In this document: positions 3,103 through 11,341 of the stretch, piece by piece
Layout of the letters: every line of letters begins with the position of its first letter
Position numbering within the stretch: position 1 is the first letter of the stretch
Assembly (NCBI GenBank): GCA_003697105.1
Contig: RFFQ01000030.1
Coordinates: forward strand, 1 to 11,341
Length of the DNA: 11,341 bases
Origin: Gemmatimonadota bacterium
Lineage (GTDB): Bacteria > 4572-55 > J002
Direction of reading: 5' to 3'
The notes under the pieces: generated by a model
Database searches by the model: none
Told to the model about the DNA's origin: nothing
The model's input: only the letters and a program-made list of their open reading frames with translations
Translations under genes and position numbers: made by a program

Positions 3103-3554
3103 AGGGCAACATCCGCCGGAGCGACAGTAGAAAGACGAATTCGACAGAGTCGCAGAGTAAGAGACTTCTCGTGCCAATTCCACTGCCTTGATTTGTTCGG
3201 TTTTGGCTTGGCCTTGAAACTTTTGTTTGCAATGATGCCCCCATTTTACCCCAATTACCAGCACTTTTCAAATTGAAAGATTCCATTGGGAAAAACGGCA
3301 CGGTGTCTTTTTCTTTTGATTTGTTTTTTTGCTCCAATCCGGCGCACGATTGCGGACGGCGTTGGCGGTGTCGTTTCCGCCATAAACCGGGAGCAATGGA
3401 GCGACAAACCGCCAACACGTAAGGAACGGTTCGCCCGTTTTAAGCAATATAGACATTGTTAGCAGGCATTACGGAATTAGTGGATCAGCACCGAATGCGC
3501 ATGTTATCCCGCGATCCAAGTCAGAAAAAGTAACTGACACCCTTTAAACAAGTG
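3103..3554. other. Gene-free stretch with several small hairpins
   Basis: No protein with recognisable character is encoded on either strand. The minus-strand open frames here (up to 107 codons, 3095-3418) have low-complexity, basic sequences and no family resemblance. What is present is secondary-structure potential: a dyad at 3361-3416 (listed separately), AACGG/CCGTT with a 5-base loop (3425-3439), and a run of T-rich sequence at 3306-3330. The segment could be a decayed mobile element or the body of an untranslated RNA that ends at the strong terminator at 3555-3589. The sequence alone does not decide between these. Confidence 0.4.
3361..3416. repeat. Imperfect dyad, 9+4 bp stem with a 2-base bulge
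   Basis: GTTGGCGGT (3361-3369) pairs perfectly with ACCGCCAAC (3408-3416). GTCG (3370-3373) continues the stem with CGAC (3402-3405), leaving AA (3406-3407) bulged on one side. The loop is 28 bases (3374-3401). A long stem with extrahelical bases recalls folded integron attC sites, but the flanking core-site consensus (RYYYAAC and GTTRRRY) is not convincingly present and no integrase is nearby, so it is recorded only as a structured repeat. Confidence 0.6.
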
Positions 3555-3589
3555 GCTCCTCAATATATTAGTATTGAGGAGCTTTTTTT
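3555..3589 (+). terminator. Strong intrinsic terminator with no gene upstream
   Basis: An 11-bp perfect stem, GCTCCTCAATA (3555-3565) with TATTGAGGAGC (3572-3582), closes a 6-base loop and is followed directly by seven T residues (3583-3589). This is a textbook Rho-independent terminator for + strand transcription. The nearest upstream + strand gene, clpB, ends about 600 bases earlier and has its own candidate terminator. This one may therefore end a non-coding transcript or a lost gene, or act as a backstop. Confidence 0.9.
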
Positions 3590-3969: not shown

Positions 3970-4203
3970 ATGCCAATCAAAAGTTATCTTGCCTATCCAT
4001 TAGAGGGCAAAAAGCAACAACTCGCGCAGGAGTTGGCAAATATAACTGGATGTGAAATCATACCATCAACGAACACCGAATTAATTGTTTTGGTGACAGA
4101 AACAGCAGACGAACAGGCAGAGACCGAGCTAGAAAATCGCTTGAAAAACCTCATGTCATTGCAATGTTTAACAATGGTTTCCGGTTTTGGCGATCATGCT
4201 TAA
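3970..4203 (+). CDS. napD: NapD-like Tat-signal chaperone for nitrate reductase
   Basis: This 77-residue cytosolic protein fits the NapD family in size and layout: a ferredoxin-like beta-alpha-beta fold starting IKSYLAYPLEGK, a helix leading to a GCEII strand, then an ELIVLVTE strand, a second helix and a final strand MVSGF. NapD proteins bind the twin-arginine signal of NapA and hold back export until the molybdenum cofactor is inserted. It is the first gene of the operon, with an AGAGGA ribosome site just before the ATG. Its stop lies 23 bases before napA, whose product carries a Tat signal, which supports the assignment. The sequence is divergent at residue level, so the call leans partly on context. 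Confidence 0.85.
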   Translation: MPIKSYLAYPLEGKKQQLAQELANITGCEIIPSTNTELIVLVTETADEQAETELENRLKNLMSLQCLTMVSGFGDHA

Positions 4204-4226
4204 TCTTAACGTTTAGGAGTAAACTA

Positions 4227-6554
4227 ATGAATCGAAGAGAATTTTTAAAGCAGATGGCTGCCGTCACCGCCATGACAGCGGCGGCGACGATGTTTCCGGG
4301 CATTCTGTTTGCCGAAGACCAGAACAAAACACTACCAAACGATGATCTAACGTGGAAAAAAGCACCATGCCGGTTTTGTGGTGTGGGTTGTGGGTTGTTG
4401 ATTGGTTTGTCGGGGGGTCGTGCGGTAGCGGTCAAAGGAGACCCAGCAAGTCCGGTCAACAAAGGGTTGTGTTGTGTCAAGGGCTATCACTCTGTGATGG
4501 CATTGTACGGCGCCGATCGATTAAAAACGGCGTATGTTCGCAAAAATGGGGAGCTTGTCCCCACGCCAATCAAGGAAGCACTTGATCTGGTTGCCCAAAA
4601 GATGCAAGAAACCATTAAAACACATGGTAAAGATTCGGTGGCAATGTATGGATCGGGGCAGTGGACCATTCCGGACGGTTATGTTGCTTCCAAATTGATG
4701 AAAGGGGCTATCGGGACAAATAATCTGGAAGCGAACGCCCGGTTGTGCATGGCAAGTGCGGTCACCGGTTTTATCAGTACATTCGGGATCGATGAACCGA
4801 TGGGCTGTTATGAAGATATTGATCATGCCGATGTATTTGTGTTATGGGGCAATAACATGGCAGAAATGCATCCGGTGCTATTTTCACGAATACTGGATCA
4901 GCGCCTTAAACGCAAAGATGTAAAAATTATCGATTTGGCGACGCGAACGACACGCACCAGTATGGCGGCAGATAAATCGATTCTGTTTTTGCCCCAATCA
5001 GATTTAGCCCTTGCCAACGCAATCTGTTACGAAATTTTGCGGAATGGCTGGGAAAACAAATCATTTATCGAAAAACATTGTCATTTCAAGAGCGGTAAGA
5101 CCAATATTGGGTATGGGGTAGAGGATAAATTCGCGTTTAAAGACGAGAATACCGATATAACCTTTGATCAATATAAAAAATTTCTGGAAGATTATACTCC
5201 TGAAAAAGTGGAGCAGATATCGGGGGTATCGGCAAAGGACATTCGGTATCTTGCCTCATTATATGGTGATCCCAACCGCAAAGTAACCAGTTTCTGGTGC
5301 ATGGGTATGAACCAACATACACGCGGAACGTGGATCAACAACCTCGTTTACAACATCCATTTACTGGTGGGTAAGATTTCCACCCCGGGTAATAGCCCGT
5401 TCTCACTAACCGGACAGCCCAGCGCCTGCGGAACCGTGCGAGAAGTTGGCACTCTTACCCACAAACTCCCCCACGGTGTGGTAATGAACGAGGAGGCTCG
5501 GAAAAAAGCCGCGAAAATCTGGAAAGTGCCGGTAGAGAACATCCCTCCCAAACCCAGCCTACACACCGTTGAAATGTTTCGGGCATTGGATCGGGGCGAG
5601 GTAAAATTTATGTGGATTCAAGTCACCAACCCGATGGTAACCATTCCAAAACTGAATCGCTATCGAGAGGGTGCACAAAAAGCGGGTCGATTTATTGTTG
5701 TTTCGGATGTTTACCCCACACCCACAACCGATATTGCTGATGTAATTTTGCCTTCTGCTATGTGGATCGAGCGAGAAGGGATGTTTGGCAATTCCGAACG
5801 ACGAACCCAACATTTTGAGAAAATGGTGGATCCCCCCGGCGAAGCCATGAGTGACACCTGGCAGATTATCGAAGTTGCCCGCCGGATGGGATTTCAGGAG
5901 CTTTTTCCGTGGGATGAAGCGACTCATATTGAAGAGATTTGGAAAGAGTACACCCAATTTCATGCGGGTGAAAAACACGGCATGGCACCTTATGAGGTTC
6001 TCAAAGAGCGTCCCGGTGTGATGTGGCCCTTCGTCAATGGAAAAGAGACCAAATGGCGTTTTAATGCAGAAACCGATCCGGCAGCAAAAGATGGTGATCC
6101 GTTCAAATTCTATGGCAAACCCGATGGTAAAGCCTGGATTCTGGCGCGTCCGTATGAACCCCCTGCGGAAGAACCCGACGATGAATATCCATTCTGGTTA
6201 AATACCGGTCGTGTATTGGAACATTGGCATACCGGCTCAATGACGCGGCGAATCCCCGTATTGCATAAAGCCATGCCGCATAGCTATGTTGAACTCAATC
6301 CCGAAGATGCGAAAGAATTAGGTATCCGTAATGGTGAAAACGTCCTCCTGACTTCCCGACGGGGCAAAATTACACTCCCCGCATCGATCAATGAACGGGG
6401 TGTTCCACCCAGAGGTCAAGTCTTTGTCCCATTTTTTGATGAAAACCTGTTAATTAACGAATTAACGCTTGACGCGTTTTGTCCCATCTCTAAACAACCG
6501 GATTATAAAAAATGCGCCGTGAAAGTTCAGAAAGCCCTCAAAAGCGAATCGTAA
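4227..6554 (+). CDS. napA: Periplasmic nitrate reductase catalytic subunit NapA
   Basis: This Mo-bis-MGD enzyme reduces nitrate to nitrite in the periplasm. At 775 residues it is between short Desulfovibrio-type NapA and proteobacterial NapA. Start ATG 4227 is chosen over the in-frame ATG 4164 because GGAG (4215-4218) precedes it and the product then begins with the Tat signal MNRREFLK plus a hydrophobic stretch ending near FAED (about 30). The [4Fe-4S] site is C48, C51, C55 and C83, in CRFCGVGC and CCVKGY. K85 is the usual lysine between cluster and pterin. The molybdenum ligand is C174 in NARLCMASAV, followed by the NapA-typical FGIDEPMGCYED. The C-terminus keeps the family LTLDAFCPISK and KCAVKV pattern. 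An extra cysteine (C82) sits beside the cluster ligand. Export with NapD points to respiratory Nap rather than assimilatory Nas. Confidence 0.97.
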   Translation: MNRREFLKQMAAVTAMTAAATMFPGILFAEDQNKTLPNDDLTWKKAPCRFCGVGCGLLIGLSGGRAVAVKGDPASPVNKGLCCVKGYHSVMALYGADRLKTAYVRKNGELVPTPIKEALDLVAQKMQETIKTHGKDSVAMYGSGQWTIPDGYVASKLMKGAIGTNNLEANARLCMASAVTGFISTFGIDEPMGCYEDIDHADVFVLWGNNMAEMHPVLFSRILDQRLKRKDVKIIDLATRTTRTSMAADKSILFLPQSDLALANAICYEILRNGWENKSFIEKHCHFKSGKTNIGYGVEDKFAFKDENTDITFDQYKKFLEDYTPEKVEQISGVSAKDIRYLASLYGDPNRKVTSFWCMGMNQHTRGTWINNLVYNIHLLVGKISTPGNSPFSLTGQPSACGTVREVGTLTHKLPHGVVMNEEARKKAAKIWKVPVENIPPKPSLHTVEMFRALDRGEVKFMWIQVTNPMVTIPKLNRYREGAQKAGRFIVVSDVYPTPTTDIADVILPSAMWIEREGMFGNSERRTQHFEKMVDPPGEAMSDTWQIIEVARRMGFQELFPWDEATHIEEIWKEYTQFHAGEKHGMAPYEVLKERPGVMWPFVNGKETKWRFNAETDPAAKDGDPFKFYGKPDGKAWILARPYEPPAEEPDDEYPFWLNTGRVLEHWHTGSMTRRIPVLHKAMPHSYVELNPEDAKELGIRNGENVLLTSRRGKITLPASINERGVPPRGQVFVPFFDENLLINELTLDAFCPISKQPDYKKCAVKVQKALKSES

Positions 6555-7234
6555 ACACCAAATACCGGATCATTTTTATTGGGATTTGTGTGATTCTGAT
6601 GACCTCAGCCATCTATATTATCGGTGAGAGTCTCCAGCAAGAACAGCAAGGTGCGGAACTGAAAGCACCTGCCACCGGCGATATACCGTCAATTCCCGTC
6701 GAAGCCGGAGTATTCCGCCGGTCGGAACAGGCGTTGACCTATGCCAATGCACCGGAAAATAACAAAAACCCACGTACGCTGGACACATTCTATGATTTGC
6801 GGGCGTATCCCGGAGCACCACCGGTAATCCCCCATGAATTGATTAATGAGCAAAGCTATGGGGGCAAAAGTTGCTTACCGTGCCATGAAAATGGCGGTTA
6901 TGTCCCCCGATTTAACGCCTACGCACCAGTGACACCGCATCCCGAAATGATCAATTGCCGCCAATGCCATGTGGCCGTCAAAACAAAAGATACCTTTAAG
7001 GAATCAAATTGGGTGACCATAATACCCCCCCCTATCAATCAGGAAGCGATGACGGGAAGTCCTCCGCCCATTCCGCACGGGTTGCAGATGCGCGAAAATT
7101 GTCTTGCCTGCCATGCGGGACCGGCAGCGCCGACCGAAATTCGGACATCCCATCCTGAACGCATCAACTGCCGTCAATGTCATGCTTTAAATGATAAACC
7201 GACAACGGCTTGGACTCGAAACACTTCTTACTAA
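6512..7234 (+). CDS. napB: Tetraheme NapB-like cytochrome c (duplicated NapB unit)
   Basis: This is an electron-transfer subunit for NapA. It has 240 residues and four CXXCH hemes: C121-H125, C149-H153, C197-H201 and C220-H224. Residues 98-172 follow the NapB pattern: YPGAPPVIPHE, CLPCH, TPHPEMINCRQCH, then a proline-rich tail. Residues 184-224 repeat it as PPPIPHG, CLACH, TSHPERINCRQCH. Likely distal ligands are H108, H143, H189 and H214, two per unit. Standard NapB has two hemes, so this looks like an internal duplication. Residues 19-38 form one hydrophobic segment after a basic N-terminus with no clear cleavage site, suggesting a membrane anchor facing the periplasm. The gene overlaps the end of napA by 43 bases with no strong ribosome site, implying translational coupling. 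The NapB identity of the first half is firm; the function of the extra half is inferred. Confidence 0.88.
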   Translation: MRRESSESPQKRIVNTKYRIIFIGICVILMTSAIYIIGESLQQEQQGAELKAPATGDIPSIPVEAGVFRRSEQALTYANAPENNKNPRTLDTFYDLRAYPGAPPVIPHELINEQSYGGKSCLPCHENGGYVPRFNAYAPVTPHPEMINCRQCHVAVKTKDTFKESNWVTIIPPPINQEAMTGSPPPIPHGLQMRENCLACHAGPAAPTEIRTSHPERINCRQCHALNDKPTTAWTRNTSY

Positions 7235-7244
7235 GAGATGATCT

Positions 7245-7898
7245 ATGAAACACTTTACCCGATATTTTCTTATTGTGAGTGCTATTTTTGGTCTCTATGG
7301 GTTGGTGGGCTGTGGTAATCGGGATCATGCGGACTTTGCGGCGATAACAAAACATCGAAGTTTACCGGAACAGCTCGAACATATAACAGAACCGAACACC
7401 AACGGCGGTGTGACCATTGACGCACTAGTTGCTGAGATTACCACCGTAGATGCCATTGGACTTCCTCCCGATATCCAACCGTTTCAGGTTAAAGATCGAC
7501 TGGTTGAATTGAGCAAATATCCGTGCCTAAATTGCCATTCCAAATCCATCGAACAATTAAAAATAGAGCAGGCAGATAGCCTTCGCAATGCCCACTGGGA
7601 CGTGGAACTAAATCACGCCCCGGAACATGTGATGAAGTGTGGTACATGCCATAATGAGGAAAATTTCGATCAACTGAAAACCCTAAACGGTGAACCAGTA
7701 TCGTTTAGCCACAGTTACTTGATTTGTGCTCAATGTCACTCCCAACAACATGAGGATTGGATGATCGGTGCACACGGTAAACGGCTTGGCGGATGGGCAC
7801 CACCGCGGGTCGTCAATAATTGTACACACTGCCATAACCAACACCAACCGGCGTGGGGAAAACGGTGGCCCGCTCGTGTGACTCAAACCGTACACTAA
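7245..7898 (+). CDS. Tetraheme c-type cytochrome lipoprotein
   Basis: This 217-residue protein has a signal sequence ending in the lipobox LVGC (C23), so it is probably an outer-face, lipid-anchored periplasmic cytochrome. Four CXXCH sites bind heme: C94-H98, C132-H136, C161-H165 and C193-H197. Further histidines (H117, H124, H128, H156, H169, H177, H200) can provide bis-His ligation. The segment AHGKRLGGWAPPRVV just before the last heme, followed by a KRWPA tail, resembles cytochromes encoded next to NrfC/NrfD-type quinol dehydrogenases. It starts 10 bases after the NapB-like gene and ends 16 bases before the Fe-S protein, so it likely bridges the two. It is not NapC: it lacks the N-terminal helix and heme spacing of NapC/NirT. 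NapM, a small tetraheme Nap partner in some lineages, is a possible functional counterpart, but homology is not claimed. Confidence 0.85.
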   Translation: MKHFTRYFLIVSAIFGLYGLVGCGNRDHADFAAITKHRSLPEQLEHITEPNTNGGVTIDALVAEITTVDAIGLPPDIQPFQVKDRLVELSKYPCLNCHSKSIEQLKIEQADSLRNAHWDVELNHAPEHVMKCGTCHNEENFDQLKTLNGEPVSFSHSYLICAQCHSQQHEDWMIGAHGKRLGGWAPPRVVNNCTHCHNQHQPAWGKRWPARVTQTVH

Positions 7899-7914
7899 TG
7901 GAGAACAGGAAACA

Positions 7915-9063
7915 ATGAATGCGAAAAACCCTTCTCATTCAATGGAAAGTTGTAATGAAAATTGCGCAAATACGGCTGATTTAAGCATCTCCACCTTGAT
8001 CGAGGGTATGCTGGCGGAAAATATCCTCTCAACTCCTGAAAAAACAGAACGTGACTTAGAGGTGTTAATGGAGCGTAATCAAGAAGGAGATGGTTGGAAC
8101 GAACCCACCGATCAAGTGATTCCCTCGGGCTACCAACAAATGGTACAGCAACCGGTGAACCGGCGAACTGCAGTAAAAATCGTTGCCGCCGGACTCCTTG
8201 CTGGTGCGGGGCTCTTCCAAACTGCATGTAGCCCCTTCGCCAGTGCCGAAGCCAGAGAAAAAGCCCAACTGAATTGGGAAGAGTACTTCAAAGGCAATTT
8301 TCGGTTAATGAGCGACGACGAAAAGGAAGCCACTGTTGCCCGGTTAGAACGCTTGTATGAACTGAACACCGGTAAACATCTTAATATTTCGGCGGCGAAT
8401 GCGCTACCGGGAGTATTGTACGGTTATGCGTTCAATATTTCCAAGTGCCGCGGTTATATGGATTGTGTGCGTGCGTGTATCAACGAAAATAATCAAGATC
8501 GTAAATCGGGAATGCAGTACATCACAATTCATGAGCATAAAAAAGGACAGATCAATTTTGAGCATGCTGAAGATGATTTTTACCATGAAGTGCCTCAAGA
8601 GGGTCATTTTTACATCGGTACACAGTGCTTTCATTGCGAAAATCCACCTTGTGTGAATGTGTGTCCCGTCAAAGCCACATGGAAGGAACCTGACGGTATT
8701 GTGGTCGTGGATTACGATTGGTGCATCGGCTGCCGTTACTGCGAAGCCGCTTGTCCTTATGACGCACGTCGTTTTAATTGGGCGGATCCGGTCATTCCTG
8801 AAGAAGAAGTCAACCGAAACCAGCATTATTTAGGCAACCGTCTGCGCAAAAAAGGGGTGATGGAAAAATGTACCTTCTGCATCCAGCGAACCCGAACGGG
8901 TAAAAATCCAGCCTGTGTGGAAGCCTGCCCCACCGGCGCACGAATTTTTGGAAATCTACTCGACCCCAATAGTGAAATACGCCATGTTTTGCGGACCAAA
9001 AAAGTCTTTCGATTAAAAGAAGACTTAGGTACAGAGCCAAAATTCTGGTATTTTATGGATTAG
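7915..9063 (+). CDS. DsrO/NrfC/ActB-like iron-sulfur subunit with extended N-terminus
   Basis: This is a periplasmic ferredoxin-like subunit expected to take electrons from the downstream NrfD-type protein. It has 382 residues. An unusual extension of about 80 residues precedes a twin-arginine-like segment, NRRTAVK (82-88), and a hydrophobic stretch to about residue 105 ending QTAC. Variant Tat signals after an N-terminal extension are known for ActB-type proteins. Cysteine motifs: C178, C184, C188 (CRGYMDC then C, with Y181 where a second Cys is usual); C238, C241, C246, C250; C270, C273, C276, C280; C319, C322, C334, C338. Three motifs are complete and the first lacks one ligand, so three [4Fe-4S] clusters plus one altered or missing cluster are likely. 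An AGGA ribosome site precedes the ATG, 16 bases after the cytochrome gene. The exact subfamily is uncertain. No molybdopterin domain is fused to it. Confidence 0.88.
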   Translation: MNAKNPSHSMESCNENCANTADLSISTLIEGMLAENILSTPEKTERDLEVLMERNQEGDGWNEPTDQVIPSGYQQMVQQPVNRRTAVKIVAAGLLAGAGLFQTACSPFASAEAREKAQLNWEEYFKGNFRLMSDDEKEATVARLERLYELNTGKHLNISAANALPGVLYGYAFNISKCRGYMDCVRACINENNQDRKSGMQYITIHEHKKGQINFEHAEDDFYHEVPQEGHFYIGTQCFHCENPPCVNVCPVKATWKEPDGIVVVDYDWCIGCRYCEAACPYDARRFNWADPVIPEEEVNRNQHYLGNRLRKKGVMEKCTFCIQRTRTGKNPACVEACPTGARIFGNLLDPNSEIRHVLRTKKVFRLKEDLGTEPKFWYFMD

Positions 9064-9163
9064 CCAAAGGGGTTCATCAACGAATAAGCAGTCTTCAATG
9101 AGCGTGTCAAGCAATGGTAGGGTTCAAAGTTTACAGAACGTAACTAGATAGGAACGAAAACGT

Positions 9164-10390
9164 ATGAAAGTGTTGATCGGCTTTATTAAAGATGCGGTAA
9201 TCTCGGTGACATCCGGCAGTTTAAAATACCATATCTGGATGGCATTCCTCACCTTTTTGATGCTCTGCGGTGCCTATGCCTACTCAATTCAGATCAAAAA
9301 CGGACTGATTGTTACCGGTATGAGCGACGGCGTAAGTTGGGGGCTTTACATTTCCAACTTTACCTTTTTGGTCGGTGTTGCCGCCGCCGCCGTGATGCTG
9401 GTGTTACCCACATACATCTTGAAAGATATCGATTTTTCCCGTGCCGTATTAATTGGTGAAGGGATGGCAGTTGCCGCGTTGGTCATGTGTTTAGCGTTTG
9501 TTACGGTTGATTTAGGGGGACCCGCCCGTATCTGGCACTTGATCCCCGGTATTGGCTTGTTCAATTTTCCCAACTCCATGCTCAGTTGGGATGTAATTGT
9601 TCTTAACGGCTACCTGTTTATCAATTTAACGATCCCCTTGTATATTTTGCTCTGGCATTATCAGGGGAAAGAACCGAAAAAAGCAGTTTACTTACCGGGC
9701 GTTTTTATCTCCGTCTTTTGGGCCGTGGCGATTCATATGGTGACGGCATTTTTATACGCTGGATTGGTTTCGCGCCCGTTTTGGAATTCATCCTTGTTAG
9801 GACCACGGTTTTTAGCATCCGCCTTCGCCGCGGGACCGGCGCTGATGATCCTTGTTTTGGGGGTGATTCGCCGTAACACGGATTATTGGGTAGAAGACAT
9901 CACCTTAAATAAAATAGCGCTGGTGACAACCGTAGCCGCACAAATCAACATGGTGATGCTTATCTCCGAGCTATTTAAAGAGTTTTACTTCCCCACACAC
10001 CATAGTCTGAGTGCAATCTATCTCTATTTTGGGTTGGACGGCTACGATGGATTGACTCGTTGGATTTGGCCCGCCGTGATTATGAACCTGATCGCCACGA
10101 TCATGTTGACCCTGCACCCGTTACGAAAAAATCCGTTTTTCTTAAAGCTCGCGTGTTTGATCTTATTTGTTGCCATTTGGATTGAAAAAGGAATGGGTTT
10201 AATTATCCCCGGTTTTATCCCTGGACCATGGGGGAAAATCATTGAATACACCCCAACCTGGATCGAAATTGTGGTGACTGCTGGCGTTTGGGCACTGGGT
10301 TTATTTGTATTTACCCTACTTGTTAAGATTGCAATTCCCATAGAATTAGGACAATTGCGATTTCACCAGACGGCAACAAACCAACCCTAA
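9164..10390 (+). CDS. DsrP/HmcC/NrfD-family quinol-site membrane protein
   Basis: This integral membrane subunit is predicted to oxidise menaquinol and pass electrons to the Fe-S protein encoded before it. Its 408 residues contain about ten hydrophobic segments (roughly 24-42, 58-83, 95-115, 141-164, 176-202, 213-235, 250-272, 299-320, 326-350 and 365-392), matching the ten-helix HmcC/DsrP branch rather than eight-helix NrfD. Family-like signatures include GVSWGLYISNFTFLVGVAAA (56-75), VDLGGPARIWHLIPG (115-129) and LGPRFLASAFAAGPA (212-226). No heme motif is present, as expected. The gene follows the Fe-S gene after 100 bases with no obvious terminator between them, and has its own AGGAA ribosome site (9150-9154). 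It is the last gene of the operon. With the Fe-S partner it would replace NapC or NapGH as quinol dehydrogenase for Nap, which is inference from gene order. Confidence 0.92.
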   Translation: MKVLIGFIKDAVISVTSGSLKYHIWMAFLTFLMLCGAYAYSIQIKNGLIVTGMSDGVSWGLYISNFTFLVGVAAAAVMLVLPTYILKDIDFSRAVLIGEGMAVAALVMCLAFVTVDLGGPARIWHLIPGIGLFNFPNSMLSWDVIVLNGYLFINLTIPLYILLWHYQGKEPKKAVYLPGVFISVFWAVAIHMVTAFLYAGLVSRPFWNSSLLGPRFLASAFAAGPALMILVLGVIRRNTDYWVEDITLNKIALVTTVAAQINMVMLISELFKEFYFPTHHSLSAIYLYFGLDGYDGLTRWIWPAVIMNLIATIMLTLHPLRKNPFFLKLACLILFVAIWIEKGMGLIIPGFIPGPWGKIIEYTPTWIEIVVTAGVWALGLFVFTLLVKIAIPIELGQLRFHQTATNQP

Positions 10391-10741: not shown

Positions 10742-11341
10742 ATGAAACACCATATTCTTACCCTTATATCCATATGTTTGGCTTTGGTTTTTGTTCATCG
10801 GCTTTTGCTAATGCGATCATTTCCGATCAACTTCAAGACGAACTGAATACCGCAGGAGAAACCGAGTTCATAGAAGCAATCATTTTTATGGTTGACCAAG
10901 TTGATACGAAAACACTAGACCGCCAACTGTATAAAGAACAAGCCTCACCCGCAGACCGAGCGTATACCGTTATTACCGCATTGCAGGATAAAGCGAATCA
11001 GACTCAGAATAGTTTGGCAGCATATCTGGACGCGAAAACATCAGCTGAAGTAAACCAATACAAAAGTTATTGGATTGTAAATGCGGTTTTTGTTGAAGCT
11101 ATCCCATCCGTTTTAAGCGAGATCAGTCTTGATCCGACTGTTTATTATATGGATAGCAATGTACCTATTGAAATTGATGAACCGGATGCGAACTTGTATC
11201 TAGACCCTCCGGATTGTCCTGAAGAAGGTTCTGAAGATATAGAGTGTGGTATTCGAGTCATTAATGCTCCCGCACTTTGGGATTTAGGAATTACAGGCAC
11301 TGGAGTTGTGGTTATGAATGTGGATACTGGTGTTGACGGTA
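10742..11341 (+). CDS. Secreted S8 (subtilisin-family) protease, 5' part, apparent frameshift
   Basis: This is the N-terminal part of a secreted serine protease, cut by the window end. ATG 10742 has GGAG at 10730-10733 and begins a signal sequence, MKHHILTLISICLALVF. That frame hits TGA at 10844. The frame one base back is open from there to the window end and continues CSSAFA-NAIISDQ, completing a signal peptide with an AFA cleavage site. The switch point is a five-T run (10788-10792), and one extra T would restore a single frame. The mature part has a propeptide-like domain (inhibitor I9-like, ending near VYYMDSN) and then ALWDLGITGTGVVVMNVDTGVDG-type sequence, whose DTG contains the catalytic Asp (codon 11323). 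The His and Ser regions lie beyond the window. An in-frame ATG at 10774 would avoid the shift, but it lacks a ribosome site and yields a poor signal peptide. Confidence 0.8.

Follow-up and report, generated by a model that had tools for sequence, protein, structure and literature searches.

How does a periplasmic nitrate reductase draw electrons from quinol when its operon encodes neither NapC nor NapGH? The question is raised by contig RFFQ01000030.1 of a Gemmatimonadota bacterium (C93 in our numbering), which we analyzed over its entire 11,341 bases and hereafter refer to as the window. Six intact genes lie on its forward strand between positions 3970 and 10390 (Table 1). Family searches and intact open reading frames bear out the gene content given in a first-pass annotation of the sequence, namely NapD, NapA, a NapB-like protein, a tetraheme lipoprotein, a DsrO-like iron-sulfur (Fe-S) protein and a DsrP-like protein, co-directional and with short gaps; no napC, napG or napH is found within the operon. 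We consider it very probable that the six genes form a self-contained system for periplasmic nitrate respiration, in which a module of the NrfD type replaces NapC or NapGH.

The arrangement is conserved well beyond the window. A search of 145 genomes returned five further carriers, all of which keep the order NapA, NapB, tetraheme protein, DsrO, DsrP; their NapA proteins are 71-75% identical, and NapD was found in three. Scanning 84,980 species genomes with a NapB alignment gave 386 encoding stretches, of which the best 80 are used for the locus counts throughout. The six genes stand in one order on one strand in 71 of these 80 loci, the other nine being cut at contig ends, and no locus among the 80 contradicts the order. 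Because 71 of 80 loci share the order and none contradicts it, the arrangement is far beyond chance. The search for napA neighborhoods with both an NrfD/DsrP protein and the tetraheme lipoprotein, which the first-pass annotation had proposed, thus yields a cassette conserved across phyla.

The cassette is widespread, occurring in many marine Bacteroidota and in several other phyla. The best 80 loci come mostly from marine Bacteroidota (Aquimarina, Zobellia, Cellulophaga, Arenibacter, Flagellimonas and Tenacibaculum) and also include Calditrichota, Acidobacteriota and SAR324; one locus labelled Nitrospina is among the nine cut by contig ends. Genomes G030, G054, G084, G128 and G264 carry the six genes as well, as does G050 as far as its contig extends. 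Flammeovirga kamogawensis has the six genes by themselves on a 640-kb plasmid, with the last of them publicly annotated as a DsrMKJOP subunit. Of 386 broadly sampled genomes, 25 encode NapA over the cut-off, and seven of these carry the cassette. All six parts are present in G273, arranged as two divergent units; a separate origin for this arrangement was considered and set aside, one clade not being rejected by the approximately unbiased (AU) test (p-AU 0.655).

The usual donors are missing from relatives. NapH was not found over its cut-off in any of six carriers or in any of 24 named carriers (best about 69 bits, cut-off 213; the NapG model was not searched). The NapC/NirT family (PF03264) gave no match at an E-value of 0.001 in 12 of the 24 named carriers, among them Cellulophaga baltica, Zobellia uliginosa, Zobellia amurskyensis, two Arenibacter and Tenacibaculum pelagium, and NapC-family matches are likewise absent from G050 and G128. 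Nine named carriers have PF03264 over the cut-off; in these, and in G030, G054 and G084, the gene lies within approximately 1 kb of nrfA. As they adjoin nrfA, these NapC-family proteins are expected to be NrfH.

The proteins themselves fit the proposed roles. NapA scores at equivalog level, with 1008 bits to NF010055 (cut-off 904) and 980 bits to TIGR01706 (cut-off 930.55); its twin-arginine translocation (Tat) motif is RREFLK, and its start is the ATG at 4227 rather than the reading-frame start at 4164. NapD falls slightly below the Pfam cut-off of 28 bits and is counted as NapD given its conserved position. The NapB-like protein carries four CXXCH motifs rather than two, as do all 80 relatives, so that none is a diheme NapB. 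Its Pfam NapB score is 23.1 bits (cut-off 25.1), and a 23-member profile matches the solved NapB structures 1ogy, 3ml1 and 1jni with E-values of 4e-7 to 3e-5. Because this profile finds solved NapB proteins, we read the cassette protein as a double NapB, a membrane-anchored tetraheme cytochrome: each tandem unit is patterned His - CXXCH - His - CXXCH, and a structure model places a helix at residues 9-45. A Foldseek search of that model against the PDB gave no match, whereas the sequence profile does find NapB.

The tetraheme lipoprotein was assigned to no specific family by family searches, and its structure model is too poor for use (mean predicted local distance difference test (pLDDT) score 54.4). 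It has an invariant lipobox Cys23 and exactly four invariant histidines outside the heme motifs (117, 124, 177 and 200); the NapB-like protein also has exactly four (108, 143, 189 and 214). Four extra invariant histidines in each protein fit bis-histidine ligation of the hemes in both. Two loci elsewhere (L177 in G224 and L179 in G366) combine NapA with a tetraheme NapB-like protein and have no DsrO/DsrP; L177 has in their place an octaheme protein together with a membrane protein of 7 helices. From these two loci, additional undescribed Nap donors may exist.

In the DsrO-like protein, a conserved twin-arginine pair (R83 R84) follows an N-terminal extension, and 15 cluster cysteines are present. 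The extension, present in the window (7915-8160) and in Bacteroidota relatives, is frequently Cys-rich, for example SSCGCGKTSGGC. At cluster-ligand position 181, 85 of 86 cassette proteins have Tyr; among 26 stand-alone module proteins used for comparison, 17 have Cys there. Because Tyr181 occupies a cysteine-ligand position, one cluster may be 3Fe-4S; the same Tyr also occurs in the nearest stand-alone modules (L235 and L237). For the DsrP-like protein, we transferred the quinol-site and proton-gate lysine residues proposed for DsrP1 (PMC8076601) by a numbering offset, which was checked with sequences of the DsrMKJOP clade and not with an aligned D. vulgaris protein. On this numbering, all 28 cassette proteins aligned retain the proposed quinol-site residues Y62, D116, S138 and D143 as well as the gate Lys342, together with most residues of both half-channels.

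These features suggest a route for the electrons. The DsrP-like protein would oxidize menaquinol on the periplasmic side of the membrane and pass electrons to the Tat-exported DsrO-like protein and its clusters, from which they would move to the membrane-tethered tetraheme lipoprotein. The lipoprotein would in turn reduce the membrane-anchored tetraheme NapB, and NapB would deliver the electrons to NapA for the reduction of nitrate to nitrite, with NapD serving NapA maturation. The carriers may form a physical complex and may translocate protons. The last three genes would represent one form of a broader tetraheme/Fe-S/NrfD module that became fixed to one Nap lineage.

Trees are consistent with such a history. 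Among 74 DsrP-like proteins, the 28 cassette members form one clade (Shimodaira-Hasegawa-like approximate likelihood ratio test (SH-aLRT) 99), DsrMKJOP proteins form one of their own (support 100), and the cassette clade has stand-alone tetraheme/Fe-S/NrfD modules as its neighbors. Cassette NapA proteins are likewise a single clade, with support 100, against 22 other NapA sequences; clade supports for both proteins come from a quick tree method. Distances among the NapA proteins are correlated with those among the DsrP proteins (Mantel r 0.69, with 0 of 999 permutations as high), which supports co-inheritance, short of functional proof, as vertical descent alone gives correlation too. We also observed DsrO/DsrP-like pairs beside an octaheme cytochrome of approximately 535 residues at two loci without napA (L229 and L232), which suggests that the same module serves other periplasmic reductases.

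The first-pass annotation described the module as typical of sulfur-cycle and alternative-complex-III-like enzymes. Its likeness to DsrMKJOP lies in the DsrO and DsrP model cut-offs, which are reached, and in the same proposed quinol and ion-path residues. It differs in that DsrM, DsrK and DsrJ are absent from the operon, dsrA is found over its cut-off in none of 32 carriers, and the DsrP clade is a different one. A sulfur-cycle origin therefore did not hold: because the tree separates the clades and dsrA is absent, "sulfur-cycle module" is best read as a label taken from profile names and not as a statement of origin.

Three other explanations have to be weighed. The DsrO/DsrP-like pair could be genuine DsrOP from a sulfite reduction complex, relocated beside nap, as might be supposed from the two NCBIfam scores, both over cut-off (Table 1), and from the public label on the Flammeovirga copy; the fully supported separation from DsrMKJOP DsrP, the lack of dsrA over cut-off and the lack of adjacent DsrM, DsrK and DsrJ effectively rule this out. 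Alternatively, the last three genes could encode an independent quinol:cytochrome oxidoreductase serving several acceptors, with nap a mere genomic neighbor and NapA fed from a general cytochrome pool, for example via alternative complex III. Many genomes do encode the three-gene module in the absence of nap, either by itself or close to other multiheme genes, the window's genome has a set resembling alternative complex III, and the DsrO-DsrP gap exceeds 150 nucleotides (nt) in 11 of 76 loci. We nevertheless judge this explanation unlikely, given a six-gene order shared across several phyla, a cassette DsrP that forms its own clade and tracks NapA, the many carriers that have no NapC or NapGH alternative, and G273, in which the genes are split and divergent and yet all six parts remain together.

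Further observations weigh against the replacement of NapC or NapGH by the NrfD-type module, most of them from the window's own genome. Draft genomes possibly miss genes, although it is unlikely that all twelve NapC-family absences are such misses. The stand-alone modules found in many genomes without nap leave room for other partners. On contig C183 (L187), a set resembling alternative complex III is followed by cytochrome oxidase genes and is another possible periplasmic source of electrons; because of these oxidase genes, the host probably respires oxygen too. Contigs C114 and C118 each encode a large multiheme protein whose N-terminus is of the NapC/NrfH type (673 residues and 17 hemes on C114; 500 residues, NrfH-like, on C118), and we rejected both as a hidden NapC on account of these properties. 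The C118 protein, whose operon has an upstream palindrome in common with nap, might feed Nap too. Relatives do not conserve this palindrome before napD (1 of 74), so that an FNR-type operator conserved among relatives was rejected.

The C118 protein could even be the main Nap feeder in the window's genome, in the manner of CymA in Shewanella. It is encoded in an operon (C118 9498-13816; L186, L279) with an HAO-family octaheme cytochrome, for which 4qo5 is the best relative of solved structure, and a 411-residue protein. The shared palindrome lies 130 nt upstream of the operon, on the other strand, and the protein matches the NrfH model with 52.5 bits, but it reaches 23-24 bits with the NapC models (cut-offs 310-349), it adjoins the octaheme cytochrome as a natural partner, and twelve named carriers have no such protein at all. 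We regard this role as improbable and consider that the protein most likely serves the HAO-type octaheme cytochrome. The first-pass annotation's claim that an NrfD-family module stands in for NapC and NapGH thus holds among relatives (NapH in 0 of 30, no NapC-family match in 12 of 24). Its proposed check of the same genome for napC or napGH gave no NapH over cut-off and returned the larger multiheme proteins of C114 and C118; because the C118 operon, with its NapC/NrfH-family protein, has the nap palindrome upstream, exclusivity of the NrfD-type module cannot be claimed from the window's genome alone.

The six-gene arrangement is not among the four nap operon structures listed in a May 2026 review, all of which contain NapC or NapGH: napEDABC, napDAGHB, napCMADGH and napAGHBFLD (PMC13223375). 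It shares with those systems NapA, NapD, a NapB-type donor and the reaction, and differs in having no napC, napG or napH in the operon, a membrane-anchored tetraheme NapB and an NrfD-family quinol dehydrogenase. Nitrate reductases do not figure in a review on NrfD-like subunits (PMC8076601), and we found no description of the six-gene set in the open-access literature; subscription reviews were outside this scope, and an earlier description is possible.

The closest described module is the Geobacter Cbc4 complex (CbcSTU), consisting of a tetraheme cytochrome, an Fe-S protein and a membrane quinone oxidoreductase (PMC11434368, PMC10989804). The cassette has the same elements in the same order, a tetraheme periplasmic cytochrome, an Fe-S protein and an NrfD-like membrane protein, the likeness drawn here being one of composition and gene order. 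The two agree in a four-heme cytochrome (CbcS), an Fe-S protein (CbcT, a relative of DsrO), a membrane subunit (CbcU) and a proposed electron flow from menaquinol to cytochrome c, whereas CbcSTU is tied to extracellular electron transfer and not to napA. Shewanella SirCD, an Fe-S protein with an NrfD/PsrC-type quinol dehydrogenase, can replace the NapC-family protein CymA; the likeness lies in an Fe-S plus NrfD-type donor, the difference in that CymA is not replaced for nitrate (PMC11434368). Two metagenome-assembled genomes (MAGs) from the Oslofjord have an NrfD/ActD-type cluster downstream of nap (PMC10732223). These environmental genomes resemble the cassette in placing an NrfD-type membrane protein downstream of nap; they differ in having a multiheme (mostly pentaheme) cytochrome and ActD, with no tetraheme NapB or lipoprotein described.

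Periplasmic nitrate reduction is usually held to waste the energy of quinol oxidation, as NapC pumps no protons. We suggest, tentatively and with more doubt than confidence, that the cassette represents a fifth kind of Nap, a single membrane-bound, ion-translocating quinol:nitrate oxidoreductase of the NrfD type that would be electrogenic, unlike NapC-driven systems, and would serve much of the marine Bacteroidota as their standard Nap. An energy-conserving Nap thereby becomes a possibility. The cassette would explain nitrate respiration in bacteria without the usual supply proteins, and cultivable marine carriers that have no NapC-family gene or recognized NapH make the electron route specific and testable. 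Automatic annotation conceals the cassette, since the name that it gives to the membrane subunit is that of a sulfate-reduction protein.

Table 1. Features of the nap locus in the window, with the matches on which each assignment draws
Feature	Coordinates	Strand	Description	Support
Palindrome TTGACTAAAGTCAA	3871..3884	.	Perfect palindrome; candidate operator of CRP/FNR-family type	85 nt before napD
napD	3970..4203	+	NapA chaperone, 77 amino acids	Pfam NapD 25.9 bits; position kept in 74 of 80 relatives
napA	4227..6554	+	Short-form periplasmic nitrate reductase catalytic subunit, Tat signal	NF010055, TIGR01706
napB-type gene	6512..7234	+	Tetraheme cytochrome; N-terminal membrane helix and two tandem NapB-like diheme units	
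Tetraheme lipoprotein gene	7245..7898	+	Tetraheme c-type cytochrome lipoprotein, CbcS-like in position and make-up	Four CXXCH, in 80 of 80
dsrO-like gene	7915..9063	+	DsrO-like four-cluster Fe-S protein	NF045797 201.9 bits (cut-off 200)
dsrP-like gene	9164..10390	+	DsrP-like NrfD-family membrane protein, proposed quinol dehydrogenase	NF045798 401 bits (cut-off 350)

The palindrome upstream of napD follows the pattern TTGAC-N4-GTCAA, which has 14 exact copies in the genome, compared to one for a reversed control pattern; most of the 14 fall within genes. The same spacer recurs at a single further site, the one before the HAO-type operon on C118. Because the C118 operon and napD share this upstream 14-mer, a single nitrate/nitrite regulon is suggested, and it is likely that Nap, reducing nitrate to nitrite, and the HAO-type enzyme with its own quinol donor, reducing nitrite to ammonium, belong to it together. 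The single candidate promoter reported in the first-pass annotation found no support: a sigma-70 consensus scan gave 12 sites, compared to 14.4 +/- 4.0 expected from shuffles, and thus no excess.

The junctions between the six genes are, in order, a 23-nt gap, a 43-nt overlap and gaps of 10, 16 and 100 nt; the corresponding medians in the 80 relatives are 4, 3, -11, 13 and 43.5 nt. No RNA families were found in the window. The host genome measures 4.18 Mb, is 97% complete and has nearly no sampled relatives. Its contig C114 also holds a cluster of multiheme cytochromes (L184 and L185; 17 and 19 CXXCH), together with a member of the NrfD family that has three CXXCH. Within the window, clpB (374-2950) precedes the six-gene block at a distance of approximately 1 kb. 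Between clpB and napD lies a strong terminator-like hairpin (3554-3583; 13 pairs and a T run), with no clear gene before it. Downstream, at 10774-11341, the start of a protein that is truncated by the contig end shows a weak match to a protease family.

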